From Gammaproteobacteria bacterium (GTDB lineage Bacteria > Pseudomonadota > Gammaproteobacteria > SZUA-152): 13,454 bases of DNA. Each line of letters opens with the position of its first letter. Positions within the stretch are counted from its first letter, which is position 1. The position numbers and the translations under genes are program-made. The stretch is taken from the NCBI GenBank assembly GCA_003229995.1, contig QIGJ01000146.1, forward strand, positions 1 to 13,454. Reading direction: 5' to 3'. Under the pieces are notes generated by a model that worked only from the letters and a program-made list of their open reading frames with translations, had not been told where the DNA came from and did no database searches. This document shows positions 323-13,454 of the stretch, piece after piece.

Positions 323-2575
323 CTAAAACATTTCCTGCGGGTCCACATCAATGGACCAACGTACCTTGCGGCCCAGTTTGTCGGACTCTAATTGTTGCAG
401 CCAAGGTTCTAGTAAATGGTGCAGTGCCGCTCGCTCGGAGGCTTGTAATAAGAGTTGTGCACGAATTCGGCCAGCACGGCGTTCCATGGGTGCAGGTATG
501 GGGCCAAGCAGTTGAACACGGCTTTCGCCAAAATTTGCGCCAAAGGCTGCTCCAAGTTGCTCGGCAAGCTGGCGGGCATGTTTAAGAAATTGCAGCGGCA
601 ACTGACCGTCTGCCGCTTCGGCGCGTAGCAAGGCCATGTAACTGTACGGCGCGAGTTGCGTTTGTCGGCGCTCTTCCAGCGCGGCTTGTGCGAAGGCGGT
701 GTACCCTTCGTGTAATAATATTTGCAGCAATGGGTGATCGGGGTGGTGAGTCTGGATCAACACCTGCCCAGGTTTTTCCGCCCGTCCTGCACGACCGGCA
801 ACTTGCACCAATAACTGTGCCATGCGTTCAGTGGCACGAAAGTCAGCGCTGAACAGGCCTTGGTCAAGGTCCACGATGCCGACCAAAGTGACATCCGGAA
901 AATGGTGCCCCTTGGCGAGCATTTGTGTGCCCACGAGGATGCGTTTACTGCCGTCGTGTACGCTGTCCAACAGGCTCTGCATGGCACCTTTACGACGGGT
1001 AGTATCACGGTCGATACGTACGATCCCGGTATCGGGAAATTGTTGTTTGAGTGCGGTCTCCAGTCGCTCGGTGCCGACACCCACCGACCGCAATTCGTTG
1101 CTTTGGCAATCCGGGCAACATGCGTCAGCGCGTCGTTCACTGCCACAGTGGTGGCAGCGCAGGCGTGTATTACCATTGAACAGCGTCATGTTTGCATCAC
1201 AACGCCGACATTTGGCCACCCAGCCGCAGTCGTGGCATAACATGGCGGGTGCATAACCTCGTCGATTGAGAAACACCAATACCTGCCCGCCTTTGTCGAG
1301 GTGTCGATGCAAAGCATTAATCAGTGCAGTGGACAGACCATCGGACATGGGTTGTTTGCGTACATCGAGTACGGCAATGTGCGGAGGTTGTGCGACACCG
1401 GCCCGTTCTGCCAGCACTGACCGGGAGTAACGCCCCTGATGGGTGTTGTGCAAAGTTTCCAGTGACGGCGTGGCCGACCCCAGTACCACTGGCAGGTTTT
1501 CAATATGGGCACGCTTTACCGCCACGTCGCGTGCAGAATAGCGAAAACCTTCCTGCTGTTTGAACGAGGCATCGTGTTCTTCATCAAGAATCATTAATCC
1601 CAATCTGGCAAACGGTGTAAACACTGCTGAGCGGGTGCCGATAACGATGGCGGCTTCCCCGTTACGGGCCATTAGCCAAGTATGAAGACGTTCGCGATCT
1701 GATAGTCCTGAATGAAGTACCGCGATGGGCGCTGCGAAGCGTTGCTGGAAACGCGATACCAGTTGCGGAGTGAGGCCGATCTCCGGCACCAGCACCAGCA
1801 CCTGTTGGTTTTGTGCCAGCACGGATTCGATGAGCGCCAGATACACCTCGGTCTTACCGCTGCCGGTAACACCGTCCACAAGATGGACACCGAAATCCCC
1901 CAGTTTTGCCGCAATGGCTGCAACGGCCTCAGTCTGGGCGATATTTAATTGAGGAGCTGTTGTTGATTTGCCCACAGGCAATGGCTGTAAATGGATGCGT
2001 TCGGTCACCGCCACCCAGCCTTTATCGATCAGTTTGTGCATCACCGGTCGCCAGTTATTCTGCACGGCATCAATGTGCGATGCCGACATGGCGGTATCCG
2101 GTGCAGTGCTTAATAATTGCAGCAGCGCAGCTTGCCGGGGAGCACGACGACGGGTTTGTGCCAGCAATGATGAATCCAGTGTGTGTCCATCATCCGTTAA
2201 CTGCCAGACCTGTTCGCCCTTCATTTTGGGGGCATGTCCTTGGCGTAACAGAGCTGGCAGGGCATTGCTCATCACTTCGCCTATCGGGTGTTGATAATAG
2301 CTGCTCGCCCACATCAGCAATTTTAGCAGTGGCTGTGACAACGCGGGTGTTGTATCCAGTATGTTGCTGACGTGTTTGAGGCGTGATCTGGGTACGTCTG
2401 TTTTATCGCTGATCGCCAATATTACTGCGACCACGGTGGTGCGCCCAAACGGTACCCGCAGGCGTATGCCTGGCTGTAGTGTGTGCAAGTCGCAAGCTGT
2501 CGGTGGAAGATAATCAAAACAACGACGCAAGGGGGAGGGTATGGCGACACGTAAAAAAATATTGGCTGCGGACAT
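323..2575 (-). CDS. priA: Primosomal protein N' (replication restart helicase PriA)
   Basis: PriA is a cytoplasmic superfamily 2, 3'-to-5' DNA helicase. It recognises stalled forks and D-loops and starts reloading of the replicative helicase through PriB/DnaT or PriC. The 750-residue product is close to the usual length (732 in E. coli). Seen: an N-terminal DNA-binding domain with the FDYL…RVPFG signature (residues ~20–44), Walker A GVTGSGKT (~235–242), the DEEH box (331–334), SATP (~367–370), and an inserted zinc-binding region with paired cysteines at about 447/450, 456/459, 474/477 and 487/490. The helicase C half carries QVAGRAGR. I chose the ATG at 2575; an in-frame GTG at 2584 would add three residues (MAR). 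AGAG lies just upstream of the ATG. The gene diverges from nth, and a MITE-like repeat starts only ~35 bp upstream, so its native promoter is unclear. Confidence 0.97.
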   Translation of the reverse strand: MSAANIFLRVAIPSPLRRCFDYLPPTACDLHTLQPGIRLRVPFGRTTVVAVILAISDKTDVPRSRLKHVSNILDTTPALSQPLLKLLMWASSYYQHPIGEVMSNALPALLRQGHAPKMKGEQVWQLTDDGHTLDSSLLAQTRRRAPRQAALLQLLSTAPDTAMSASHIDAVQNNWRPVMHKLIDKGWVAVTERIHLQPLPVGKSTTAPQLNIAQTEAVAAIAAKLGDFGVHLVDGVTGSGKTEVYLALIESVLAQNQQVLVLVPEIGLTPQLVSRFQQRFAAPIAVLHSGLSDRERLHTWLMARNGEAAIVIGTRSAVFTPFARLGLMILDEEHDASFKQQEGFRYSARDVAVKRAHIENLPVVLGSATPSLETLHNTHQGRYSRSVLAERAGVAQPPHIAVLDVRKQPMSDGLSTALINALHRHLDKGGQVLVFLNRRGYAPAMLCHDCGWVAKCRRCDANMTLFNGNTRLRCHHCGSERRADACCPDCQSNELRSVGVGTERLETALKQQFPDTGIVRIDRDTTRRKGAMQSLLDSVHDGSKRILVGTQMLAKGHHFPDVTLVGIVDLDQGLFSADFRATERMAQLLVQVAGRAGRAEKPGQVLIQTHHPDHPLLQILLHEGYTAFAQAALEERRQTQLAPYSYMALLRAEAADGQLPLQFLKHARQLAEQLGAAFGANFGESRVQLLGPIPAPMERRAGRIRAQLLLQASERAALHHLLEPWLQQLESDKLGRKVRWSIDVDPQEMF

Positions 2576-2610
2576 CCGCGCCACTCTAACAGACCTGGGC
2601 TGAGTCTAGT

Positions 2611-2770
2611 CGTATAAGTACCTGAACAACATTATTTTAACATTTTCTTGTTTATTTTCCGGCCTTCTGCGTTGCTACTACGGTCACATAGCTCACTTCG
2701 CAGCGCTTTGAAGGCCGAAAAATACCCTGTGAAAATTTTGTTAAAATAATGATGCCCAGGCACTTAACCG
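2611..2770. repeat. ~160-bp imperfect inverted repeat, MITE-like element
   Basis: The two flanks mirror each other over most of their length. AAGTACCTG…ATTATTTTAAC at 2616–2641 matches the reverse complement of 2741–2766 at about 22 of 26 bases. Further in, CCGGCCTTC (2659–2667) pairs with GAAGGCCG (2710–2717), and GCGTTGC (2669–2675) nearly pairs with GCAGCGC (2699–2705). That leaves a loop of roughly 22 bases. It is too large and too mismatched for an ordinary terminator, codes for nothing, and sits in a divergent spacer. This fits a non-autonomous miniature inverted-repeat element or a dispersed intergenic repeat. Flanking target duplications are not obvious. Confidence 0.6.
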
Positions 2771-2870
2771 CTTTCCTTTTTTCTGATCACTAGTGTGGTA
2801 TTAGTCATCGAGGCGCACTGCTATTGTCAGCATCCAGTGCCAACTGATTGTCATGCCATCGCTTTCCCGG

Positions 2871-2905
2871 TTATCCACAAAAGCTGTGGATAACTTTGTG
2901 GACAA
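2871..2905. promoter_or_regulatory. Cluster of three DnaA-box-like 9-mers
   Basis: TTATCCACA (2871–2879, perfect E. coli consensus) is followed after five bases by its exact inverse TGTGGATAA (2885–2893). TGTGGACAA (2897–2905; inverse TTGTCCACA, a one-base variant) comes after three more bases. Two perfect boxes head to head plus a third within 35 bp is unlikely by chance. The first two also form a 9-bp stem with a five-base loop. The role could be DnaA-dependent regulation of priA/nth, DnaA titration, or a piece of a replication origin. Confidence 0.65.
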
Positions 2906-3090
2906 CTATGGTAAAAAATCATTTCATGCTGTAATACCAGTATCATATCGAAAATGGTTGTTTTTTGATCACATTATATTTAATATATTATTCAATGGGT
3001 TACAGGCTATCAATGAGTTACCGTCAAAATTATGGATACATACCGGAGTATTTTTCGTTTGGAAAAAATATTGTGTATAAACTCAAAAAG
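2906..3090. other. AT-rich non-coding stretch beside the DnaA boxes
   Basis: This stretch is markedly more AT-rich than its surroundings, with an almost pure A/T core at about 2972–2996. An open frame covers 2853–3080, but it has no ribosome binding site and a composition unlike the neighbouring genes, so I treat it as non-coding. Together with the DnaA boxes it resembles an easily unwound element. Only one GATC falls inside it, with another at about 2784, so it lacks the dense GATC pattern of enteric oriC. Confidence 0.4.
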
Positions 3091-3092
3091 TC

Positions 3093-3122
3093 TTGACATT
3101 TTTTTTCACCAAGCAGTATAAG
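3093..3122 (+). promoter_or_regulatory. Sigma70-type promoter, probably for nth
   Basis: A perfect −35 TTGACA (3093–3098) is followed after 18 bases by TATAAG (3117–3122). Transcription would start near 3129 and give a ~130-base leader before nth. GGCTTGCG (3122–3129) and CGCAAGCC (3208–3215) are exact 8-base complements in the region, so the leader may fold. I see no other strong promoter closer to nth. Confidence 0.6.
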
Positions 3123-3258
3123 GCTTGCGGCGGCGTGGGGTATTTTTGACGCTCACATCACATCATTGCGCACTAAATAAAGGGCGGCACTCTGGCCTGT
3201 TGAGTGGCGCAAGCCATATGACACATTGCAACCCAAAACAGTTTAAAATGCCCGCGCC

Positions 3259-3894
3259 ATGAACGCACAAAAACGACAGGAAATATTTCAGAGGCTACAA
3301 CAGCATATCCCGGAGCCGACTACCGAGTTGCACTATCACACATCATTTGAGCTACTGGTGGCGGTAACCCTGTCTGCGCAGGCCACGGACAAAGGCGTTA
3401 ATAAGGCCACAGACAAGCTCTTCCCGGTAGCCAATACTCCGGAGGCGATTTTGGCGATGGGTGAAGAAGGCCTGAAAAAATACATCAAAACTATTGGTTT
3501 GTTTAACAGCAAAGCCCGACATATTATCAAGGCCTGCCAAATACTGGTGGAACAGCACAACAGCGTGGTACCGGAAGACCGTGTCGCGCTGGAAGCGTTG
3601 CCCGGAGTAGGGCGAAAAACGGCCAACGTGATTTTAAATACGGCCTTTGGTCATCCTACTATTGCGGTAGACACACATATTTTCCGGGTCTCCAATCGCA
3701 CTCGCATTGCACCGGGTAAAACCGTGCTGGACGTGGAAAAAAAACTGCTGAAGTTTGTGCCGGATGAATTCAAGCTCGATGCGCATCACTGGTTGATTCT
3801 GCACGGGCGTTACACATGCATTGCCCGCAAACCGCGTTGTGGTTCCTGCGTGATTGAAGATTTATGTGAATACAAAAAAAAGGCTTACGAATAA
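3259..3894 (+). CDS. nth: Endonuclease III (DNA glycosylase/AP lyase)
   Basis: This base-excision-repair enzyme removes oxidised pyrimidines and nicks the resulting abasic site by beta-elimination. The 211-residue product has the same length as E. coli Nth and aligns with it by eye without gaps. Seen: the helix-hairpin-helix LPGVGRKTAN (~114–123) with catalytic Lys120, the catalytic Asp138 in AVDTHIFRV, and the [4Fe-4S] ligands Cys187, Cys194, Cys197 and Cys203 with E. coli spacing. The ATG at 3259 gives the family's standard N-terminus, although no good Shine-Dalgarno sequence precedes it. The stop overlaps the start of the following DUF1841 gene (TAATG), so the two are co-transcribed and probably translationally coupled. 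Confidence 0.98.
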   Translation: MNAQKRQEIFQRLQQHIPEPTTELHYHTSFELLVAVTLSAQATDKGVNKATDKLFPVANTPEAILAMGEEGLKKYIKTIGLFNSKARHIIKACQILVEQHNSVVPEDRVALEALPGVGRKTANVILNTAFGHPTIAVDTHIFRVSNRTRIAPGKTVLDVEKKLLKFVPDEFKLDAHHWLILHGRYTCIARKPRCGSCVIEDLCEYKKKAYE

Positions 3895-4328
3895 TGTTTG
3901 GACAGGACCGCAATCAACTTCGACAGATGTATTTTGACGTTTGGCGTAAGCAACAGAGTGGCGAACTGATGCAACCACTGGAGGCGATGATCGCCGAGGT
4001 GATTGTACTGCACTCGGAATACCACACTTTGTTGGAGCAGGGCGAAAATGCATTGGACAAGGATTTCCTGCCTGAAATGGGTGAAACCAACCCCTTTATG
4101 CACATGGGTATGCATATTGCGATTCGTGAGCAACTGGCCACCGACCGGCCGGATGGTATTGTGCTGGTGCATAAAAAACTGTTGTTGCGTTTGCGGGACG
4201 TGCATGAGGTGGATCATCAAATCATGGAATGTCTGGGAGAGTCATTGTGGGAGGCGCAGCGCAATAATAGCGTACCGAACGAGTCACAATACCTTCAGTG
4301 TGTGCAACAACGGGCTAACAAAAAATAG
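3894..4328 (+). CDS. DUF1841 family protein
   Basis: A 144-residue soluble protein of unknown function. It carries the features I associate with DUF1841: an N-terminal FGQDRNQLRQMYFDVW segment, a central NPFMHMGMHIAIREQL block (~91–106) rich in Met and His, DRPDGI, and a C-terminal HEVDHQIMECLGESLWEAQR. The conserved histidines and acidic residues (H95, H99, H129, H133 region) could suggest metal binding, but that is inference. It overlaps nth by one base and so is expressed with it, as in many gamma- and betaproteobacteria. No signal peptide or membrane segment is seen. Its 3' end faces argG, with 85 bp between and no clear hairpin terminator. Confidence 0.9.
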   Translation: MFGQDRNQLRQMYFDVWRKQQSGELMQPLEAMIAEVIVLHSEYHTLLEQGENALDKDFLPEMGETNPFMHMGMHIAIREQLATDRPDGIVLVHKKLLLRLRDVHEVDHQIMECLGESLWEAQRNNSVPNESQYLQCVQQRANKK

Positions 4329-4413
4329 CGAACAGGGCTCAGAAATAGGGTCAGGAACCGTGGGTGAGGACGCGATGTTGAACTCGGTACAGGGGAAAAA
4401 CTTTGCAAGGAAA

Positions 4414-5631
4414 TCAGGTGTTTTTTCTGGCTGCAATGCGCATACGTAACGCATTGAGTTTAATGAAGCCCTCGGCATCCTGCTGATTATAAGCACCTTT
4501 ATCATCTTCAAAGGTGACGATGTTGACATCAAACAGACTGTCCGTGGCAGACTCACGCCCCTCGACAATGACATTACCCTTGTACAGTTTGAGCCGCACC
4601 CGGCCATTGACGGTCACTTGTGATGCGTTGATCATTTCCTGCAACATTCTGCGCTCCGGTGCCCACCAGTAGCCGTTGTAAATCAGTGTGGCATAACGTG
4701 GCATCAGCTCATCTTTCAGATGTGCCACTTCACGATCCAGGGTAATGGACTCGATGGCACGATGGGCTTTGAGCATCACCGTGCCTGCCGGTGTTTCATA
4801 ACAACCACGCGATTTCATGCCGACGTAACGGTTTTCCACGATGTCATCACGGCCGATGCCATTGGCTCCCGCCACTTTGTTAAGGTGTGCCATCACCTGC
4901 GCGGGACTCATGGCCTGTCCATCGATGGCCACGATGTCGCCTTTTTCAAAATTCAGTTCGATAATGGTCGCCGTGTCTGGCGCATTTTCCGGTGACACCG
5001 TCCAGCGCCACATGTCATCTTCCGGGCCCGCCCAGGGGTCTTCCAGTACACCACCTTCGTAGGAAATATGCAGTAGATTGGCATCCATGGAGTAAGGGGA
5101 TTTTTTGCCGCGTTTCTGTTCCACGGAAATACCATGAGTCTCGGCATAGGACATCAGTTTTTCGCGTGAGTTGAGATCCCATTCTCGCCACGGGGCGATG
5201 ACCTGCACATCCGGCTTGAGACCATAATAACCCAGCTCAAAACGGACCTGATCGTTGCCCTTGCCGGTAGCGCCATGCGACACCGCATCAGCACCGGTCG
5301 CATTGGCAATTTCAATCTGGCGTTTGGAGATCAGCGGCCGCGCAATTGAGGTGCCCAGTAGATATTCGCCCTCATAAATGGCATTGGCACGAAACATGGG
5401 AAATACAAAATCGCGCGCATATTCCTCACGCAGGTCATCAACATAAATTTCTTTGACTCCCGCCGCCTGAGCCTTGGCCCGTGCCGGTTCGACTTCTTCG
5501 CCTTGGCCTATATCGGCAGTGAAAGTCACCACCTCGCAATCGTATTCATCCTGCAACCATTTAAGAATAATGGAAGTATCCAGTCCACCGGAATAGGCCA
5601 GGACAACTTTTTTAACGTTTATTTTCGACAT
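4414..5631 (-). CDS. argG: Argininosuccinate synthase
   Basis: Catalyses ATP-dependent condensation of citrulline and aspartate to argininosuccinate, the penultimate step of arginine synthesis, in the cytoplasm. The 405-residue product is typical of the shorter (type 1) bacterial form. Seen: the PP-loop ATP site AYSGGLDTS (~12–20), the GTSIARPL block (~93–100), [15 protein letters not shown] (~118–132) and the C-terminal [10 protein letters not shown] region. The start ATG gives the standard [17 protein letters not shown]-terminus, with a CAGG about ten bases upstream. It is transcribed as a single gene from its own promoter and is not part of the psp/yjf cluster to its right. No arginine-repressor box is convincing. 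Confidence 0.98.
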
Positions 5632-5674
5632 GATTTTAAACCTGATTCAATGTGTAAAGCGGGCACCGCGCGGT

Positions 5675-5703
5675 ATTATAAGCCACTACCCGACCCGTCA
5701 CAA
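5675..5703 (-). promoter_or_regulatory. Sigma70 promoter of argG
   Basis: Read on the minus strand, TTGTGA (5703–5698) is followed after exactly 17 bases by a perfect TATAAT (5680–5675). The predicted start near 5668 gives a ~37-base leader to the argG ATG at 5631. It lies just beyond the stop codon of the M50 protease gene at 5716, so argG can be expressed independently of the upstream cluster. Confidence 0.75.
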
Positions 5704-5715
5704 AATACCGGTGCA

Positions 5716-6378
5716 TTACGCGACTTTTGCCGTCGTCACCGGCCCTGCCCATAAACGATACAAACAGCCAACCGCAATAACAAACCAGAGTGCTACCCAG
5801 AAAAATTCTGGCAGGCCGGTTAATTGCGCCAAGCTGGCACCATCACCCAGATCGCGCCCGTCCAGAAGATATAATGGACTGCGAATGGCATCCAGCATGA
5901 CAAAAACACCCACGAACTGAATAAAAAATTTCACACTGAACCATAACGACTTTACTAACGGTGTGGCATATATAAACAGTAAAATCAACAAGATAATAAT
6001 GGTGGATACATCACGCGCCCACAGCAGTAATGTCACTCCCAGCATCACGACCATTATCCCCACCATGCGTTTTGCCTTTTTTGGGGACAGGGTATCAGCG
6101 ACACTGTAGATCAGTAGCCCCCATAACGCGCTACCCGCATAACCCGAAAAGCTGATGAAAAAGCGTATGCCACCACTGGTTGTACATACACCGGAACCGT
6201 TAAAAGACAGGGTGATATTATGAATGCTGCCCCCCGTTAACAGCGCCGCAAGTCCGTGGCTTATTTCATGGAAGAAGGTTTCACTCCACAAAAAAGGTAA
6301 ATTGATGAATGGCAAATAATCAATAATAAAAGCCGCAGCAATAAAAAGGATAAGTTGTTGTCGTGATGTTAATGTCAT
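5716..6378 (-). CDS. M50-type membrane metalloprotease (site-2 protease related)
   Basis: A 220-residue polytopic membrane protein. The zinc motif HEISH lies at residues 37–41 in a hydrophobic helix after FF, and the second motif GDGASLAQLTGLP at 178–190 supplies a likely third ligand, Asp179. This arrangement fits the M50B-like peptidase group. Hydrophobic segments are visible at about 8–30, 34–50, 72–93, 106–120, 123–145, 150–165 and 191–208. No PDZ domain is present, unlike RseP. Such proteases cut substrates within or next to the membrane; the substrate here is unknown. It is the last gene of the cluster, 24 bases after the DUF350 gene. The start has no good Shine-Dalgarno sequence, so it may depend on coupling to the gene before it. 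Confidence 0.8.
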   Translation of the reverse strand: MTLTSRQQLILFIAAAFIIDYLPFINLPFLWSETFFHEISHGLAALLTGGSIHNITLSFNGSGVCTTSGGIRFFISFSGYAGSALWGLLIYSVADTLSPKKAKRMVGIMVVMLGVTLLLWARDVSTIIILLILLFIYATPLVKSLWFSVKFFIQFVGVFVMLDAIRSPLYLLDGRDLGDGASLAQLTGLPEFFWVALWFVIAVGCLYRLWAGPVTTAKVA

Positions 6379-6402
6379 ATAACTATTTTACGTGCCTATT
6401 CC

Positions 6403-7308
6403 TTAAGCCCCAATGAGTCCAGCCAGCAATAAACCGACGACGATATAAATACTGCCTTCAATGGTACCGACAGCAATATTACCTTGCTCGCCAACTTCTT
6501 CTCCGATATTAATGCGAGGTAACACTCCATGACGAATCACAATGGCAATCAACGTTAATAAAATGAATAAAACCAATGCAACCACAAACCACAACATGAA
6601 AACAAGCAGGAAGGCATCGGCATCATATTCCACCGCAGTAAAGGCGGCGCTGACTGCTATGGCAATACCGATGCGGTAAGCACTAAAACGAAGCGCCAGA
6701 GCAACGTTATTTTCTTCAATTGCCTCATGCAATTGTTTTCCTTTATGACTATGGCGTTTTGCATACACTTTGACGCGATATAAAGTGGCCAGTGCCATGA
6801 TAATTTGTGATGCAATAAAGCTGACAACCACTGCAAAAATGGCCATTGTCATGCCCCCGTCGACCCACACCATGGCTCCCTTGATAATAATGGCCGTCGC
6901 AATCATATTGCAGGCATCAATGATGCCAGCGGATATATTGCCTTTCATAATTTGATCGTGAATCGATAACCCGGGAAATGAAACACGATCAAAAACAAGA
7001 CGTGTTAACCACATCAGTATTATGCCAATGACACCAAACAAAATCACTGTTAACACTTCATTGGCGAGGTTATACCCGGCATCACCGGAAACAACCCCCA
7101 TCAGCATAATGCTGACCGCTATCATGGCACCTGCCAGTGATATACCAAAAGCCTTGTTATCATTATGTGAAATTTCTTTTGTAGCGGACACATTGCCCAC
7201 CAGACCGGCGAAAAAACGCATCGCACTTAATAACGCCACTGCAATCAGGAAATCCACCAAGTAATAAGATGCCAAACCTATGTCTACATTAACAAAATCC
7301 ATGAACAT
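6403..7308 (-). CDS. DUF350 family membrane protein with four repeat units (YjfL-related)
   Basis: A 301-residue, highly hydrophobic inner-membrane protein. The DUF350 signature (Asn followed by small/aliphatic residues and a Gly-rich helix) occurs four times: DNKAFGISLAGA (~50–61), GNISAGIIDACNM (~123–135), NNVALALRFSAYRIG (~200–214) and GNIAVGTIEGSIY (~276–288). E. coli YjfL is about 132 residues with two units, so this looks like a tandem duplication. Units 1–2 and 3–4 are joined by a charged loop (~178–199). The start at 7308 is supported by AAGGA eight bases upstream, which overlaps the stop of the lipoprotein gene. Function is unknown. DUF350 genes recur beside PspA-family and polyamine genes, which suggests a membrane channel or stress role, but that is inference. 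Confidence 0.88.
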   Translation of the reverse strand: MFMDFVNVDIGLASYYLVDFLIAVALLSAMRFFAGLVGNVSATKEISHNDNKAFGISLAGAMIAVSIMLMGVVSGDAGYNLANEVLTVILFGVIGIILMWLTRLVFDRVSFPGLSIHDQIMKGNISAGIIDACNMIATAIIIKGAMVWVDGGMTMAIFAVVVSFIASQIIMALATLYRVKVYAKRHSHKGKQLHEAIEENNVALALRFSAYRIGIAIAVSAAFTAVEYDADAFLLVFMLWFVVALVLFILLTLIAIVIRHGVLPRINIGEEVGEQGNIAVGTIEGSIYIVVGLLLAGLIGA

Positions 7309-7319
7309 TTTTTGTTTCC

Positions 7320-8249
7320 TTATTTGCCTGAGCGAAAGCTGCGTGAGCCTGAATATGACGAACTGCGACTACTGGAGCCATACGAGCTGTAGCGGGATGA
7401 GGATGATTTTGATGACGATTTTGATGATGTTCCGCCATAGCGGGATGAGCGTTTAGCGGTCGTTGCATAACGGGCATTCGTTGCGGCGCTGGGTTTGTTA
7501 TATCTGCTGGGGTAGCGTTTGCTTAAATTCTGATTTTGAGCAACATCGGCATTGGAACCCCAGCGGTTACGGCCATAATTTCCGTAATAACTGTAATGGG
7601 GGCGTGATGACCATGAGCTGTAATTATAACGATTCATACCGAATACGTTACTAAACATGGAGTACATGCCATACCAGGCCCAAAAAGATTGCCCGCTACT
7701 ACCCTGAGTCCAACTGCCATAGGCCGGATTGCCGACTAGCGCATTGGCCTGCTGGGCACTGGCCCGCTGTGAAGCGGGCACATTGATTACCGCCAGTTGA
7801 CCATCGGATAATGAGGCTAACGTATTGACCACATCCGCCAAGCCGTTATTGAATTCATAAACATCGGCAGCCGAGTTGATTAATTGTAATTCCTGTAAGC
7901 CGCTGGAGGCTGTTTCTGTATTGGTCGGGGTCAGGCTGACTGCCATCAGTCGTTGATTCAGTGTGGTGTAAGCCTTGCCTTGCGAGGTCGCTTCTTTTTT
8001 CAGCAGTGTGGCGATATCCCGATAATCCGGTTTTTGCTGAATTAACGCACTGGCATACTTATCAATTAACAAGGCATTGCTTAGCCCGCGCGCATCCAAT
8101 TGATCTTTCAAATACGCCAGGCTGGATTGCGCATTTTTATGTGCGTCGCGCAACTGTCCCTCAAAGCGGTTGCCACACGCCGATAACAAGGCAACTATCA
8201 GTAAGAGCCCAAGCGAGTAAGTGAATATCCTTAATTTATTTGTTTGCAT
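7320..8249 (-). CDS. Lipoprotein with Ser/Tyr/Arg-rich low-complexity tail
   Basis: A 309-residue protein I do not recognise as a named family. The N-terminus has a positively charged start, a hydrophobic stretch (~9–22) and a lipobox LSAC, with lipidated Cys25. The next residue is Gly, not Asp, so outer-membrane sorting is plausible. Residues 30–170 look mainly helical. Residues 175–230 are rich in Trp, Tyr, Ser and Gly. From about 245 the tail is Ser/Arg/Tyr-rich with runs such as SSKSSSKSSSSRYSSYGS; the corresponding DNA contains short GAT/TTT tandem units at 7402–7429. AGGAGT is placed well upstream of the ATG. The gene follows the channel gene by nine bases. The tail could bind cell wall, LPS or nucleic acid, but this is speculation. 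Confidence 0.8.
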   Translation of the reverse strand: MQTNKLRIFTYSLGLLLIVALLSACGNRFEGQLRDAHKNAQSSLAYLKDQLDARGLSNALLIDKYASALIQQKPDYRDIATLLKKEATSQGKAYTTLNQRLMAVSLTPTNTETASSGLQELQLINSAADVYEFNNGLADVVNTLASLSDGQLAVINVPASQRASAQQANALVGNPAYGSWTQGSSGQSFWAWYGMYSMFSNVFGMNRYNYSSWSSRPHYSYYGNYGRNRWGSNADVAQNQNLSKRYPSRYNKPSAATNARYATTAKRSSRYGGTSSKSSSKSSSSRYSSYGSSSRSSSYSGSRSFRSGK

Positions 8250-8258
8250 TATCGACTC

Positions 8259-9353
8259 CTATGAAATCAATGCTCTCACATCATCATTGCTGTGCATATT
8301 GGTATCCTTGCTGATGGTGATTAATGCCTGTATATCCGGTTTTGCGCGTGCGGGAGGGTTATACACCAACGCCTGGCTGTGGCGATCAATGTAGGCCACC
8401 GCAATACCGGCATCATGCGTGATTAAACGCGCCACCACATCGCACCAGTCCATATTGCTTATTTCCACGTCGTAGCGTCGGTATTCGTCCCCCTCGCTGT
8501 TAAACATGTTTTCGATGATGCGTTCTGAGCCTGGGGCATCAAAGGCACGTACCATCATTTCAGGGTACGCGCGAATTGGTCGTATCACAATATTGGCTCC
8601 GGCATCTTCAAGCCGCTTGCGGTTGTTATCCTCAACACACTCAGCCAGGATGTTGGCCTTGACGTTTAAATCTTTCAGGCGATGTAAAATATCAAATGTA
8701 CGCCCATCCGAGCTTTCATCATTTTCATCTTTTGCCAGTACAATGATATCATGGGCCTGAGCGATACAAACGGCAATCAGGTCTTGTGGGTTGCTGGCAT
8801 TGCCGTTGTAATGCACTACATTGTCAAGCTGGGTAATAAAATCAGGTAAACCCTGTGGAAATTGTCGGGTCAGTAAATAAATGACCGTATCATTATAGTG
8901 GGCTGTTGCCCTGAATTGTTTTATCAGGCGTTGCAGATAACGCTCGCCAGAATGCGAAGGGGTATTTAATATGACGATATGCTGGTTCATGTCCCAACTC
9001 CAATGGCCTTTGGTTTTTTGCTCGCGGATCGCAAAACGGTAATCAAAATAATCACCAACCACCTTGGCTAATATAAAAATACCACCCAGATAAATCAAAA
9101 GAATAGTGGCAATACGCCCCTGAGTGGTACTGGCCGATATATCGCCATAACCCACGGTGGTGGCCGTGGTAAATGTCAGCCAGGCTGCATCTCCTACACT
9201 TAAGTTCTCATAATGCACCATAAAGCTAATATGTAAAATGAAAATAAACGTTAACAGAAAACATGACTTTCTGATCGAACGAATTAAATCATGCTGTATG
9301 CCGTGTTTTAGCCGGTCACGTTTTTTTATAAAATAACGGAGTATTGAGTGCAT
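8259..9353 (-). CDS. Two-helix potassium-channel-like protein with RCK/TrkA-N-type domain
   Basis: A 364-residue inner-membrane protein. It has a basic N-terminus, TM1 (~31–48), a pore helix and selectivity filter TVGYGD (66–71), and TM2 (~81–100). A cytoplasmic Rossmann-like RCK domain follows (~123–265), with IVILNTPSHSGE and a later LAECVEDNNRKRLEDAGANIV. The TVGYGD filter indicates K+ selectivity, and the overall plan resembles MthK. The first RCK loop lacks the GxGxxG dinucleotide motif, so the ligand may not be NAD(H). The region 285–364 looks like a further ligand-binding or regulatory part. It lies 49 bp after the small ribbon-helix-helix-like gene, the widest gap inside the cluster, and has only a weak ribosome binding site. 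Inferred role: K+ or cation flux coupled to membrane stress. Confidence 0.88.
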   Translation of the reverse strand: MHSILRYFIKKRDRLKHGIQHDLIRSIRKSCFLLTFIFILHISFMVHYENLSVGDAAWLTFTTATTVGYGDISASTTQGRIATILLIYLGGIFILAKVVGDYFDYRFAIREQKTKGHWSWDMNQHIVILNTPSHSGERYLQRLIKQFRATAHYNDTVIYLLTRQFPQGLPDFITQLDNVVHYNGNASNPQDLIAVCIAQAHDIIVLAKDENDESSDGRTFDILHRLKDLNVKANILAECVEDNNRKRLEDAGANIVIRPIRAYPEMMVRAFDAPGSERIIENMFNSEGDEYRRYDVEISNMDWCDVVARLITHDAGIAVAYIDRHSQALVYNPPARAKPDIQALITISKDTNMHSNDDVRALIS

Positions 9354-9402
9354 ATAAAGATGGGTTTTGTTCGCTTTTTAACCTAGCCTGACCGGTACAT
9401 TC

Positions 9403-9735
9403 TTAGTCCGGCAACGCATTTTTTGTTGCGCTAAGCAATTCTTTCTTTATTTTCTCACGGATTTGATCTTTCATATCTGCTGTTAACTGGTAACGTTTGG
9501 CCAATACGTCATAATCTTCGGCCGACAGGCTGATACTCAGTCGGGGTCGTATGGGCTTTTTTCGTGGCAAACCGATAATATCACGGATATAATCTGATGG
9601 GCTCAAGTTTTGCTCAATCGCTTTAATACGTACCGCTCTGAATTGTTCCTGCTCTAACTCAAATATCACCTGAACGGCGCGGATATTTTTATCTGATTTC
9701 GTCCAGGCGCTGGGAATGTTCTTTTTTGCGGTCAT
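9403..9735 (-). CDS. Small protein resembling two tandem ribbon-helix-helix units
   Basis: A 110-residue basic soluble protein with no named family that I recognise. Residues ~19–56 (RAVQVIFELEQEQFRAVRIK…SPSDYIRDIIGL) follow the ribbon-helix-helix pattern: an alternating beta strand, a first helix, an N-L-S-P turn and a second helix. Residues ~64–100 (RPRLSISLSAEDYDVLAKRY…MKDQIREKI) repeat the same pattern, joined by a Pro/Lys/Arg linker. One chain could therefore form an intramolecular DNA-binding dimer. It starts six bases after the DUF2491 stop without a clear ribosome binding site, which implies coupling. It is the only likely DNA-binding protein in the cluster, so it is a candidate regulator of the palindromic promoter at 11535–11567. 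A non-DNA-binding structural role remains possible. Confidence 0.65.
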   Translation of the reverse strand: MTAKKNIPSAWTKSDKNIRAVQVIFELEQEQFRAVRIKAIEQNLSPSDYIRDIIGLPRKKPIRPRLSISLSAEDYDVLAKRYQLTADMKDQIREKIKKELLSATKNALPD

Positions 9736-9741
9736 ATTACG

Positions 9742-10383
9742 TTACGCAAGCCAATATTCTTCGACTTTATTTAATGCCAAATAAGCAATTAAATAGACAT
9801 CGGTGCGGCCACCATCAAACACTTCAATGCGTATTGCATGGCACCGATCGTCGGTGACCAGTAATTTATAATCGAATCCTTCCCAGTCGGCATCTGTTAA
9901 TGTTTCATTACGACAATCTTTTTTGCTGCGATAGGCTTCGTTAGTGCGCTCCTGAAAATACGATTTGCCGATGAAACCTTGTAGTTCATTCAACTCGGCA
10001 TTCGTTTGGCGCTGGATACGATGATCGGTATTATCCGGCTCATCAAAAATGGCAACGAACTGATCACGGCCAAAAATATCGAACACTTTTTCCGGGAGGA
10101 CTGCCATGGCCATTTCCAGCGGTCGATCCGGGTTCACCGTGCTGACGGATAACAATACACGTTGATCAACCCCTTCCAGAATGGAAACCGTTTTGCAATT
10201 TTCTATTGCGCTGATGTCATAAAACACCTGCTCAGACACTTTTAACGTCTGCCCGGATATCAGTGTTTGTTCAGAAAATTCCATTTTTAACATATCCCCT
10301 GGCTGTAAATCTTTTGGGGATTCAACGGTTCGAGCGGGTGGTGACTTGTCGCCACCACCCAATATCGACTTAAACAAACCCAT
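9742..10383 (-). CDS. yjfK: DUF2491 family protein (YjfK-like)
   Basis: A 213-residue soluble protein similar in length and plan to E. coli YjfK (DUF2491). Function is unknown. The N-terminus MGLFKSILGGG resembles a short amphipathic segment like that of the neighbouring PspA protein. The rest looks mainly beta, with acidic surfaces and motifs such as LQPGDMLKMEF (~26–36) and DADWEGFDYKLL (~163–174). There is no signal peptide and no membrane helix. It starts two bases after the PspA-like stop, so the two are probably made together. The conserved order DUF2170–PspA–DUF2491 suggests it partners the PspA homologue at the membrane, which is inference from context. Confidence 0.82.
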   Translation of the reverse strand: MGLFKSILGGGDKSPPARTVESPKDLQPGDMLKMEFSEQTLISGQTLKVSEQVFYDISAIENCKTVSILEGVDQRVLLSVSTVNPDRPLEMAMAVLPEKVFDIFGRDQFVAIFDEPDNTDHRIQRQTNAELNELQGFIGKSYFQERTNEAYRSKKDCRNETLTDADWEGFDYKLLVTDDRCHAIRIEVFDGGRTDVYLIAYLALNKVEEYWLA

Positions 10384-10385
10384 GG

Positions 10386-11081
10386 CTAACTTTGCCCTTT
10401 CTGTTTTTTCAATCGATCCAGAATTGATGAACCTGAGTTGCCTGAATTGACAATCCCGGCATTTTTCAATTTGGCTTGCAGGTCATCACCATTTTCATCG
10501 GCATGCAATTCCATTGCCGCTGACGCCTGATCTTCACGTTTTTGCTGACGTTCCTTGATACGTTCAAGCGAATCCGTTGCACTGCGCAGCGATGAGTTTG
10601 AGCCTGAAAATTTGGCCGAGGCCAAATCATTGGCTTTTTGCACTTTCGCGGTTGTTTTAACCACTGACACTTCACGATCCATGGCCTGGATGTTGCGTTC
10701 GCTTTGACGAATCATTTTTTTCAGGCTGGCAACCTTGGAATCGTAGCCATCGCGTATTCCTTGCTGAATCGTCAGTTCATGTTCAAATTCAGCAATTTTG
10801 TTTGCGATATCCAGTGCCAGGCTTTCATCACCTTTGTCTATCGCTTGTATGGCATAAGTTTCATGTTCTGTAATTTTCTCACCAAGGTCTTTTACTTTGC
10901 GATCAACACCCATTTTTTCAGCCATAATTGATGTCAGGCCGGTTTTGGCGTCGTTCAGGGCTTTTTTGGAATCACGTATTTCTTGCTCCAAAATACGAAT
11001 TGCCTGTGAATCAACAATTGCTTCACCTACTTCCGTTGCACCACCGCGTACTGCGCTTAATAATTTGTTAAATATACCCAT
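10386..11081 (-). CDS. yjfJ: PspA/IM30 family membrane-protecting protein (YjfJ-like)
   Basis: A 231-residue, almost entirely helical protein of the PspA/Vipp1 (ESCRT-III-like) superfamily. These proteins bind stressed inner membrane through an N-terminal amphipathic helix (here MGIFNKLLSAVRG) and polymerise by long coiled coils (~25–155, dense in E, K and Q). After a Ser-rich break (~157–170) come another helix (~171–195) and a tail ending in SILDRLKKQ. Genome context (DUF2170 before, DUF2491 after) places it in the YjfJ group and not with the pspABC regulator; no PspB/PspC/PspF gene is seen. An AAGGAGG embedded in the last codons of yjfI lies 11 bases before the ATG, so translation should be strong. 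Inferred role: membrane stabilisation under stress. Confidence 0.92.
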   Translation of the reverse strand: MGIFNKLLSAVRGGATEVGEAIVDSQAIRILEQEIRDSKKALNDAKTGLTSIMAEKMGVDRKVKDLGEKITEHETYAIQAIDKGDESLALDIANKIAEFEHELTIQQGIRDGYDSKVASLKKMIRQSERNIQAMDREVSVVKTTAKVQKANDLASAKFSGSNSSLRSATDSLERIKERQQKREDQASAAMELHADENGDDLQAKLKNAGIVNSGNSGSSILDRLKKQKGQS

Positions 11082-11084
11082 AGC

Positions 11085-11510
11085 TTATGCAGCCTCCTTT
11101 AAATAATCTGATACTGCTTCAATGGCTTCCAACACATTGTCACTGAGCAGCTCTATTTCATGTAATAACTCGTCGATGCTGGCTTTGGGTGACAGCGCAC
11201 CAAACATAATGTACTGGTCACCAATTTTCGAAAATGCCGATAATGGGATCGAAACATTCATCATCAGCATGGCTTCCACCATGGCGGTGCGTTTATCCGG
11301 GTCAACCTGTTCGTCGCCAAATAAATAACTGATGCACAGTATCTGTCCTTCATCGGCGGTCATGTAAATTGGGAATTCTTCCCGGTCTTCCACCTTGATG
11401 CAGGCCACTTTATTTTCGGTATCAAACATTTCAACCGACAGGCTGATGCCATGGGATGTTTGATTTTCCGCCAAATCCTTCATCAGTTGCGCTAACTTTT
11501 CGGTGCTCAT
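11085..11510 (-). CDS. yjfI: DUF2170 family protein (YjfI-like)
   Basis: A 141-residue acidic soluble protein of the DUF2170 family. Function is unknown. It has no signal peptide or membrane segment. The middle carries VEDREEFPIYMTADEGQILC and the C-terminal half ends in a long acidic helix (LLHEIELLSDNVLEAIEAVS). I chose the ATG at 11510 because GGAGG sits five to nine bases upstream at 11515–11519; the upstream TTG at 11528 would translate through that site. It is the first gene after the palindromic promoter at 11535–11567 and ends three bases before the PspA-like gene, whose ribosome binding site it contains. It probably acts with the PspA-like and DUF2491 proteins. Confidence 0.85.
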   Translation of the reverse strand: MSTEKLAQLMKDLAENQTSHGISLSVEMFDTENKVACIKVEDREEFPIYMTADEGQILCISYLFGDEQVDPDKRTAMVEAMLMMNVSIPLSAFSKIGDQYIMFGALSPKASIDELLHEIELLSDNVLEAIEAVSDYLKEAA

Positions 11511-11534
11511 ATTTCCTCCAGTGGTCAAAGGTGA

Positions 11535-11567
11535 GACATAATATGTCCTGGCGACATATTATGTCAA
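11535..11567 (-). promoter_or_regulatory. Palindromic operator overlying a sigma70 promoter for the yjfI–pspA operon
   Basis: GACATAATATGTC (11535–11547) and GACATATTATGTC (11553–11565) are exact reverse complements separated by CTGGC. Each arm is itself an odd palindrome (GACATA-N-TATGTC), and the centres are 18 bp apart. Read on the minus strand the same bases give TTGACA (11567–11562), 18 bases, then TATTAT (11543–11538), so one palindrome covers the −35 and the other the −10. Transcription would start near 11531, about 20 bases before the yjfI ATG. There is no T-run, so a terminator for the upstream gene is unlikely. A dimeric repressor bound at the pair would exclude RNA polymerase. Confidence 0.75.
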
Positions 11568-13280
11568 CTACTTGTCGATAATATATATTCCCTGCTGTTT
11601 TTCCCAGTCAGACTTGTGGTACTGATAAGCCGCCTGACTGTTGATTCTATTCACTTTTATACTGTCCAATTGATCAAAAAAGTGTCGATTAAACTCAAAT
11701 GCCGCCAATAAAACACTTCGTGTAGACCAGCCATCGTTTACCGTCAGGTGGTCTTTTTGTGCCAGCCGGGCTCTGGCAGACACACCATTTTTAGTCGCAA
11801 TGGTCCAACCCCACTCACCAAAACTGGGTACATTATGATGATACTGCTCCACATGCATAAAACCTGCGTATTGCACTGTTTTGCCAATGGATAAAAAGGT
11901 ATTTTTGGCGTGATAAGGCGAGGTGGATTGCACCACCATAGCACCATCACCGGTCAATAATGTTTTAAGTTTGGCGTAAAAGCGCGCGGAGTATAATTTA
12001 TTCAGGTCCGGGTGGCTGGGATCAGGTAAATCCACAATGATGACATCATACAAACGTTGCTGTTGAATCAGTTCATCCACTTTCAGAAAAGCATCGCCAA
12101 AATGCGTCTGCACCCTTGGGTCACTGAAAGCATATTCGTTTAAGTCCAGCAACGCCTGATTGATGGTTTTTCCCTTATCAACATGGGGGGTGGTAAAAAA
12201 GTCAACAATAGCCGCATCAATATCGATCAGGTCAACCGACTGTGGTTGCCAGCGCAACACATCCCGTAGTGCTAGACCATCTCCCCCTCCAATGATTAAA
12301 ATAGCATCATGACGGGCGGAGGCATGCATAACGGGTGCGACTAACATCGCATGGTAAATAATTTCATCGTTACTGGCGAATTGTGAGCGGCCATTAATGA
12401 ACATCGAAACGATTTTTGGCTTGGCCGGGTCCATAATGCGTTCAGTAATGGTAACGTGCTGATATTCGGTGTTGTAACTGAAAATGACTTTGTCTTTGTA
12501 GAGCAAGTCCTCCATGGCGTTATCCCAGTCGATACCGTTGATTGCAATCGCGACAACAACGCCAGCCACCAGAAGGTGCGCACTGACCACCCACGCCCCA
12601 AAACGGATGCGCTTTCGATAAACACTGTAAAACAGTAAGCCAACCAGTAAATTAACGCTGGCAGTCATCACTGCAGCAGTGGTGGGAGGCAGGCTCAGCA
12701 TAAACAGAACCCAAATGGCTGCGCCTATACCCGCCCCAATGTAATCCGCGCCGTAGACCGAACCGGCATTATGCGCAACATGTTCACCATAAAGCGTTTC
12801 CCGGATGCTGGCAATTAACGGGATCTCCATACCAATGAAAAACCCCAAAATAAAACCAACCACATAAGGCATAATAGACGCTATTTTATGTGCCCAGAGA
12901 ATCATGCCGCCACGAGGAATTAAATCAGGGGGTAACAAAAACGTTTCCATCAGAATTTGCGGCAATATATTTGCCAGCGCCGTTGTCGCGGCTAATACCA
13001 ATACCGAGCTGACACCAATCAATGCCACGCTGACTTCCAGCCAGACAAAGGCAGTAAAATGAGCTTTAAAAATGCGCGCAGTAAAAGCTCCCAGACCCAT
13101 TGCGACGATCATCACGCCAATCATGGCAAAAATGACTTGTTCAACTGCGCCTAAAATACGCCCCGCATAATGTGACAGCAAATATTCATAAATGAGTCCA
13201 CAGCCCGCCAAAATACCCATAATGGCGAATAACACAAAATCATGTTGACGTAACGACAGTTTTGATGGGCGCTGGTTCAT
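11568..13280 (-). CDS. speE: Membrane-anchored polyamine aminopropyltransferase (spermidine synthase-like)
   Basis: A 570-residue fusion of an N-terminal membrane domain and a C-terminal aminopropyltransferase. About seven hydrophobic helices are visible (~15–35, 46–69, 78–103, 137–157, 176–197, 200–221, 228–249). The catalytic part (~260–515) shows YQHV (273–276), INGRSQFASNDE (295–306), the decarboxylated-AdoMet loop IIGGGDG (329–335), acidic LIDID (351–355), DPRV and GDA (~387–397), and DLPDP (417–421), whose first Asp matches the catalytic DxxDP Asp of SpeE. Family activity is transfer of aminopropyl from decarboxylated AdoMet to a polyamine such as putrescine. Differences from soluble SpeE are Asn for Asp in LDG and YHA in place of YHE, so the exact substrate is open. 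Its stop abuts the −35 of the next promoter. Its ribosome binding site is weak. Confidence 0.88.
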   Translation of the reverse strand: MNQRPSKLSLRQHDFVLFAIMGILAGCGLIYEYLLSHYAGRILGAVEQVIFAMIGVMIVAMGLGAFTARIFKAHFTAFVWLEVSVALIGVSSVLVLAATTALANILPQILMETFLLPPDLIPRGGMILWAHKIASIMPYVVGFILGFFIGMEIPLIASIRETLYGEHVAHNAGSVYGADYIGAGIGAAIWVLFMLSLPPTTAAVMTASVNLLVGLLFYSVYRKRIRFGAWVVSAHLLVAGVVVAIAINGIDWDNAMEDLLYKDKVIFSYNTEYQHVTITERIMDPAKPKIVSMFINGRSQFASNDEIIYHAMLVAPVMHASARHDAILIIGGGDGLALRDVLRWQPQSVDLIDIDAAIVDFFTTPHVDKGKTINQALLDLNEYAFSDPRVQTHFGDAFLKVDELIQQQRLYDVIIVDLPDPSHPDLNKLYSARFYAKLKTLLTGDGAMVVQSTSPYHAKNTFLSIGKTVQYAGFMHVEQYHHNVPSFGEWGWTIATKNGVSARARLAQKDHLTVNDGWSTRSVLLAAFEFNRHFFDQLDSIKVNRINSQAAYQYHKSDWEKQQGIYIIDK

Positions 13281-13321
13281 TTTTAGTTTTGTTATTCCGT
13301 TTGTTCTGTGTTGCGCTGCAT

Positions 13322-13348
13322 TTTATATCCCTGGATCCTGGATATAAA
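13322..13348. promoter_or_regulatory. Perfect inverted repeat upstream of the aminopropyltransferase gene
   Basis: TTTATATCC (13322–13330) and GGATATAAA (13340–13348) are exact reverse complements around CTGGATCCT. It lies 42 bases upstream of the SpeE-like ATG and 28 bases downstream of the preceding gene's stop. It could be a regulator site over a promoter (TATAAA at the ATG-proximal side on the minus strand, without a good −35) or a small hairpin after the upstream gene. No T-run follows, which argues against an intrinsic terminator. Confidence 0.4.
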
Positions 13349-13376
13349 GCATACCAGAATGACAGCATTCTCGACT

Positions 13377-13454
13377 TCAATTACATCGCTTTAATTCAGG
13401 AAATTTCTCAAACAAGTCATCGACGGAGAAGGTGATGACGTTTTCACCTTTGAA
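13377..13454 (-). CDS. C-terminal end of an unidentified gene (partial)
   Basis: The minus-strand frame open from the window edge ends in TGA at 13377–13379. It encodes 25 residues that read as natural protein, including NVITFSVDDLFEKFPELKRC. The stop is followed by ~96 bp before the SpeE-like gene on the same strand, so this gene may belong to the same cluster. The fragment is too short to identify the family. Confidence 0.5.
   Translation of the reverse strand, partial: FKGENVITFSVDDLFEKFPELKRCN

Follow-up and report, generated by a model that had tools for sequence, protein, structure and literature searches.

A palindromic box linked to a ribbon-helix-helix gene in PspA clusters of Gammaproteobacteria, and a candidate envelope-stress regulon

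The 13,454-nucleotide stretch analysed here (the window) is the entire contig QIGJ01000146.1 (G000:C8) of a gammaproteobacterial assembly of 2.2 Mb (GCA_003229995.1; 392 contigs, 81.55% complete). Nine tightly packed minus-strand open reading frames (ORFs) run from 13280 to 5716, and the ORF listing thus bears out an earlier sequence-only reading that had described nine co-oriented, closely packed genes. Their products include a membrane aminopropyltransferase, a DUF2170 protein, PspA and a candidate regulator of the ribbon-helix-helix (RHH) type. Two 13-bp palindromes, GACATAWTATGTC, lie 5 bp apart between the aminopropyltransferase and DUF2170 genes. It is likely that the cluster is a PspA membrane-protection module with its own switch, the RHH protein acting on these two palindromes. 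The sequences are best read as an RHH-controlled envelope and ion-homeostasis regulon that would be sigma-W-like in its working. A broader proposal stands at about even chances: that Gammaproteobacteria, above all marine ones (Shewanella, Colwellia, Motilimonas), possess a new RHH-repressor envelope-stress response acting via GACATAWTATGTC operators and released through a PspA-DUF2170 sensor, with PspA, HtpX, SPFH, NfeD, a YidC-like protein, NhaA, carbonic anhydrase, a K+ channel and a polyamine enzyme as outputs.

DUF2170-PspA clusters are widespread and stress-linked. The neighbourhood class, in which an RHH gene sometimes occurs, is already published, as is a sister class that has a K+ channel (Ravi 2024, PMC11237479, available portions); the words "operator", "palindrom" and "M50" do not appear in the main text as available. 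No account of the operator, its RHH link or the regulon was found in a literature search whose coverage mostly lacks subscription journals, and none of the papers containing the operator letters concerns the PspA cluster system, judged by title. With a defined operator, the RHH gene mentioned briefly in Ravi 2024 would acquire a role, and the question becomes directly testable in the genetically tractable Shewanella.

The paired box and the RHH gene

Conservation of the box, its position, its co-occurrence with the RHH gene and its recurring neighbours can be read directly from the sequences. The palindromic operator named in the sequence-only reading is real as a palindrome; its wide conservation and its presence at genes outside the cluster had been missed. 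In the window, the distal copy (GACAT box 1, 11553-11565, GACATATTATGTC on the plus strand) covers most of a -35 hexamer TTGACA (11567-11562, minus strand), and the proximal copy (GACAT box 2, 11535-11547, GACATAATATGTC on the plus strand) contains a -10 hexamer TATTAT (11543-11538, minus strand). This promoter-like TTGACA-18-TATTAT sequence (11538-11567, minus strand, 11/12) is the best sigma-70 match of the region and the top match within 5500-13454; four of its six -35 bases fall in the distal box and the entire -10 in the proximal one. No further copy of the box occurs in the window at two or fewer mismatches (0.28 expected). Because the box and promoter sit between the first and second genes, the nine genes probably form two units, the last eight being one unit with its own putative operator-promoter and the RHH gene in fourth place.

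DUF2170 was found in 27 of the 369 genomes of the class, and the class sample consists of 30 DUF2170 loci (29 fetched plus the window). Across these loci, with G+C contents from 0.38 to 0.69, the 9-bp core CATAWTATG has 32 matches versus 4.7 expected from first-order shuffles. All 11 RHH-containing loci have the core at DUF2170, versus 4 of the 19 where no RHH gene is adjacent. Among these four, the RHH gene lies elsewhere in G233 and G284 and at another DUF2170 locus in G179; in G306 no RHH gene was found, and the contig stops just past the fourth gene of the cluster. Counted by DUF2170 genome, the box occurs in 13/13 RHH-positive versus 1/14 RHH-negative cases (Fisher 7e-7, kinship ignored), and a stricter double-box pattern in 6/27, all RHH-positive. 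The box is absent from all 12 class-sample DUF2170-PspA loci without SpeE, the fourth gene and RHH. Two RHH-positive genomes also carry a second DUF2170 locus without a box (L039, L056).

A species-wide genome collection was scanned for two exact boxes 2-30 bp apart. The scan gave at least 117 stretches, all 117 of which were examined; a rough estimate puts the number expected by chance in random sequence of the collection's size below 1. The 117 double-box loci examined divide into 99 at DUF2170, 2 at PspA, 13 elsewhere and 3 cut by the locus edge (L071, L106, L108), two of which show a neighbouring aminopropyltransferase. Among the matches listed, 85 of the 117 8-kb loci contain an RHH gene. 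Most loci are labelled Gammaproteobacteria (Shewanella, Colwellia, Pseudoalteromonas, Moritella, Kangiella, Marinicella and others). In three metagenome-assembled genomes labelled Alphaproteobacteria or Rickettsiales (L139, L166, L175), a double box with a 2-bp gap precedes DUF2170-PspA, with an M50B gene directly upstream in two; spread beyond Gammaproteobacteria is possible, as are mislabelled bins. One more double-box metagenome-assembled genome is labelled Proteobacteria only (L102).

A survey of 295 genomes of one order (that of G139, including Shewanella, Moritella, Motilimonas, Pseudoalteromonas and Kangiella) overlaps the species-wide scan, and the two counts are not additive. A slightly relaxed pair is present in 57/295 genomes and the reversed pattern in 0/295. 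All 67 pairs were fetched; 55 stand at DUF2170 and 2 at PspA, 57 together, with 10 elsewhere, and 52 of the 67 loci contain an RHH gene. The RHH profile matches 90/295 genomes, including 56 of the 57 pair-positive ones; the sole pair-positive, RHH-negative genome (G477) is 88% complete and its contig ends after PspA. RHH-negative genomes of this order, and of the family below, were counted regardless of cluster presence. The relaxed pair is missing from 34 RHH-positive genomes, ten of which were fetched: two are cut before the promoter, and the other eight show, by eye, either exact single boxes or variant forms, among them GACATTWAATGTC and GACTTATTATGTC. At locus L226 (4079-5366, genome G389), a paired box precedes a cluster-type PspA gene, behind which lies a PspC-like gene (by eye); DUF2170 is not adjacent, and the RHH gene of G389 is on a different contig.

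Closer to the window, exact boxes occur in 7/8 RHH-positive versus 1/16 RHH-negative genomes of its family (24 genomes), and in 7/7 versus 0/5 of its genus. One family member (G667) has the RHH gene without a box. The lone RHH-negative box (G669) lies inside a coding gene, one that resembles a sigma-54-type regulator by eye, and is taken as chance.

Box-to-box spacers range from 2 to 26 bp, and the proximal box frequently sits within some tens of bases of the start codon. In spacers of 21-26 bp a motif resembling TGCTAAATTTAAC or GCTATCTTTAAC recurs in different families; it may be a poor -35 or the site of a second factor. Upstream of DUF2170 in L043, L045, L046, L048 and L049, the box reads CCCCATAWTATGTC, with CTTGAN about 12-14 bp upstream (by eye). 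The sigma-32 -10 element, CCCCATnT, is resembled by CCCCATAWTATGTC. A heat-shock input at boxes of this type is possible and fits a heat-tolerance report on E. coli yjfIJKL, cited below.

Boxes outside the cluster

Exact single boxes number 55 in 12 chosen RHH-positive genomes, 60 in 14 more, and 2 in 38 RHH-negative genomes; two boxes per RHH-positive genome come by selection, because the genomes were mostly picked among pair-positive ones. Forty-four non-cluster boxes from 14 genomes were fetched, leaving out those of G385 and G446 (the RHH-negative boxes) and four further boxes of G382. Forty-two of the 44 lie clear of any ORF of at least 100 aa, in loci that are 79% coding. Neighbours were counted within -120 to +400 bp, some boxes lying between divergent genes, and Pfam or NCBIfam named one or two examples per main family. 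The neighbours are NfeD (7), NhaA (7), HtpX (6), SPFH (4), SulP (2, with a divergent peptidase gene in both cases), small periplasmic proteins (5, of which 3 by similarity and 2 by eye), a Tim44-like protein, an FxsA-like protein and others (8). Two neighbours without a Pfam match are presumably YqiJ-like. Canonical PspA appears once, with a single box (L319 of G513; TIGR02977, 266.6 bits, cut-off 243).

The first 23 boxes supplied the seeds for the neighbour families, and 14 of the next 21 boxes fell into them. All three boxes of G389, from a family outside the first set, did so; most other second-set genomes belong to already sampled families. The 13 non-cluster pairs of the species-wide scan lie at alpha-carbonic anhydrase (4), YidC/Oxa1-type (3) and small membrane or unknown proteins (6). 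The carbonic anhydrase gene directly follows the paired box in Colwellia (L121, L129 and L156, Pfam-confirmed; L136, by resemblance), and a short insertase gene (Pfam 60KD_IMP) follows it in L148, L161 and L162, two of them Shewanella and one Colwellia. The 10 non-cluster pairs of the order survey include NhaA twice (L229, L231), small membrane proteins and, at L234, an AIM24 protein whose neighbouring gene is divergent.

PspA protects membranes, and SPFH/NfeD and HtpX serve membrane-protein quality control. In one B. subtilis study (PMC8581546) an SPFH protein is reportedly linked to PspA, according to its title and the start of its abstract. The box neighbours suggest that the cell's problem concerns membrane integrity as well as the balance of sodium/proton and bicarbonate; NhaA and carbonic anhydrase among them make an ion/pH role more plausible. 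Published work, in the portions available, provides parallels. Cells that have lost FtsH and HtpX are rescued by multicopy YbbK/QmcA (PMC2636767). Salmonella under alkaline stress uses NhaA and carbonic anhydrase, htpX is a CpxR target, and the canonical psp genes were unchanged in the same study (PMC6374596). In B. subtilis, sigma-W jointly controls pspA and SPFH/flotillin genes (PMC8144471); here, by contrast, a putative DNA-binding protein and a palindromic site take the place of a sigma factor, and nhaA, carbonic anhydrase and htpX are neighbours.

The window's assembly holds no further exact box, and one copy with 1 mismatch; the same-genus genome G197 likewise has no exact boxes beyond two cluster boxes. 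The circuit therefore looks local in the window's genus.

A model of repression and release

From these patterns we infer box binding by the RHH protein, repression, a releasing signal and a sensing role for DUF2170 and PspA. RHH dimers would bind the two palindromes over the promoter preceding DUF2170-PspA. Binding most likely represses, because the window boxes cover the -35 and -10 elements. Envelope or ion/pH stress would release the repressor, perhaps sensed at the membrane via PspA and chaperone-like DUF2170, a relay suggested by the DUF2170-PspA-RHH triad and by PspA-PspF logic. After release of the repressor, PspA would coat the membrane, and the channel, DUF350, lipoprotein and membrane aminopropyltransferase would tune the load of ions and polyamines. 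In Shewanella and its relatives this regulator may further control scattered envelope genes: htpX, nfeD, SPFH, nhaA, alpha-carbonic anhydrase, yidC-like and, once, canonical pspA. An RHH repressor whose release turns on membrane protection is the most economical model.

It is somewhat unlikely that the cluster is a plain copy of the published PspA-aminopropyltransferase neighbourhood, with the M50B and channel genes as neutral neighbours. Seven of the nine gene types are indeed published together (PMC11237479, available portions), so that the combination, which the sequence-only reading thought might be undescribed, is not new; M50 proteins are not mentioned in that text. The cluster is conserved and goes with PspA, polyamine and DUF350 genes, as had been proposed. 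Because many loci end at contig edges, the counts over the 30 class loci are lower bounds: PspA 27, fourth gene 15, aminopropyltransferase 12, RHH 11, channel 10, DUF350 10 (one weak), lipoprotein 9 and M50B 4. The 11 RHH-containing loci include the lipoprotein in 9, DUF350 in 9, a window-type channel in 4 and M50B in 4 (two genera). In this neighbourhood survey, which had been set beforehand as the refuting test for the earlier proposal, the outcome is mixed: the lipoprotein and DUF350 are common partners within the class; the channel and protease are not. Elsewhere M50B occurs in 3/117 scan loci (L110 in the window's order; L166 and L175 directly before the box and DUF2170) and 0/67 order loci, many of them truncated by edges, and is an occasional addition to the cluster. 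Two gene orders predominate among the class loci: the window's, aminopropyltransferase-DUF2170-PspA-fourth gene-RHH-(channel)-lipoprotein-DUF350-(M50B), and (M50B)-lipoprotein-DUF350-aminopropyltransferase-DUF2170-PspA-fourth gene-RHH. Against neutral neighbours, M50B recurs beside module genes in three orders (window, L055 and L110; L051 and L054; L166 and L175), and a plain copy leaves the operator and the non-cluster boxes unexplained.

An activating or dual role of the RHH protein, with a poor -35 spacer needing help from the distal box, is unlikely. The -35 match of 115 box pairs (identical ones removed) is no better than that of shuffled spacers, a result that agrees with activation and by which a general -35/-10 overlay of the boxes was rejected and kept for the window alone. 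Repression is favoured by the window, where both boxes lie on promoter hexamers, by the short distance that often separates the proximal box from the start codon, and by precedent, as Arc, CopG, MetJ and PutA are RHH repressors.

That a different transcription factor binds the box, the RHH protein having another role and co-occurring by linkage, is likewise unlikely. The RHH gene and the box mostly share one cluster, and G306 (box, no RHH gene found) and G667 (the reverse) are what linkage would allow. Yet G056 and G193 have DUF2170, PspA and the fourth gene and neither RHH nor box, whereas G233 and G284 retain the box with the RHH gene elsewhere. Moreover, in 12 of the 117 scan loci (among the matches listed) DUF2170, PspA and RHH are the sole module genes within 8 kb, so that RHH is the partner kept when SpeE, the fourth gene, the lipoprotein and DUF350 are not found, and the best alignments of the protein's N-terminal part are to RHH DNA-binding domains. 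An attenuator or RNA hairpins could share the perfect dyad symmetry upstream of a start codon, but are highly improbable given the overlap with promoter hexamers in the window, the variable spacers, the boxes at unlinked genes and the absence of any Rfam match in the window.

Gene products and related systems

All nine genes are on the minus strand. The membrane-anchored, SpeE-like aminopropyltransferase (11568-13280) matches Spermine_synth (111 bits) and PRK03612 (571 bits, cut-off 472). AdoMet decarboxylase is present in 12/12 aminopropyltransferase-positive genomes. The window's genome has it on a separate contig; in same-genus locus L055 and in G179 it immediately precedes the aminopropyltransferase gene, which supports a working dcAdoMet-dependent enzyme. 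From the DUF2170 gene through the M50B gene, intergenic gaps are 49 bp or less. The DUF2170/YjfI/BacA-like protein (11085-11510; Pfam 6.6e-32) has an ORF from 11528, a likely ATG at 11510 behind GGAGG and a relative of solved structure (8q8o, E 1.6e-9). The PspA/IM30 protein (10386-11081; PspA_IM30 1.5e-41) has no match to the canonical equivalog model TIGR02977 at 0.1 or 0.001.

The sequence-only reading had recognised a core like that of E. coli yjfIJKLMC, and Pfam confirms its DUF2170, PspA and DUF350 members. The fourth gene of the cluster (9742-10383) is not the DUF2491 gene it was thought to be: neither the window protein (at 0.1) nor any of 14 relatives (at 1) matches DUF2491, which was rejected. 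DUF4178 is nearer, matched by 4 of the 14 relatives (the window protein included; best 1.5e-5) in a family alignment, the window protein having no Pfam match of its own. Its AlphaFold model is beta-rich (pLDDT 87.5), with no clear PDB match.

The RHH candidate (9403-9735) combines an RHH-like domain at residues 19-57, to which its structure match is confined, with a C-terminal helical part. Its family match is below the cut-off (NikA-like, 0.0011), in line with the resemblance proposed earlier. All of the 120 homologues listed of 192 are nameless, "hypothetical" or "uncharacterized", and three bear a NikA-like Pfam label. A tandem RHH was considered and rejected: the half-versus-half alignment is out of register, and residues 19-57 alone match RHH structures. 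The second half has a weak RHH_1 match (0.37), and half-versus-half profiles score above 60/60 column shuffles.

The channel, lipoprotein, protease and aminopropyltransferase assignments of the sequence-only reading are upheld. The predicted K+ channel (8259-9353; Ion_trans_2 and a Slo-like RCK domain) has a TVGYGD filter in which T66 and G68-Y69-G70-D71 are invariant in 10/10 sequences; channel genes at the class loci form two subfamilies. The lipoprotein (7320-8249), with a Ser/Arg/Tyr-rich tail, has no Pfam family at 0.1, and its cysteine 25 is invariant in a lipobox-like context. The DUF350/YjfL membrane protein (6403-7308) contains two DUF350 stretches (1.3e-41). In the Peptidase_M50B-like membrane protein (5716-6378; Pfam 6.1e-42), a predicted protease, H37, E38 and H41 of the HEISH motif (HExxH) are invariant in 4/4 sequences.

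Among related systems, we take E. coli yjfK to be the DUF2491 gene, and to our knowledge the yjf locus has no aminopropyltransferase and no RHH gene. By description, yjfIJKL(MC) shares the DUF2170, PspA and DUF350 (yjfL) genes with the window; yjfIJKL is reported as a candidate heat-tolerance operon (PMC12492005, in part). The second group of Ravi 2024 (PspA-CesT/Tir with a membrane spermidine synthase, e.g. AAN56744-AAN56747) is closest in the portions available: the window has its hallmark, a DUF2170-PspA dyad with a membrane aminopropyltransferase and DUF350, and the group also includes a lipoprotein, a DUF4178 protein where the window has a DUF4178-like one, and sometimes RHH, DUF2170 corresponding to CesT/Tir. 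The window adds M50B and the RCK channel; its conserved lipoprotein may correspond to the Ctha_1186 type of that group. The P. aeruginosa bac operon shares DUF2170 (BacA) and PspA (BacB) and, in the available part of PMC10948618, has no spermidine synthase in or around it. Canonical Psp (PspF-PspABC) shares PspA as membrane effector, and a box lies by canonical pspA in G513; it differs in that the window cluster has an RHH protein, and no PspF-type activator turned up, none having been sought. Downstream of the nine genes, window positions 323-5631 are housekeeping, with primosomal-helicase-like and endonuclease III-like genes (both by eye) and argG (5631-4414, minus strand).

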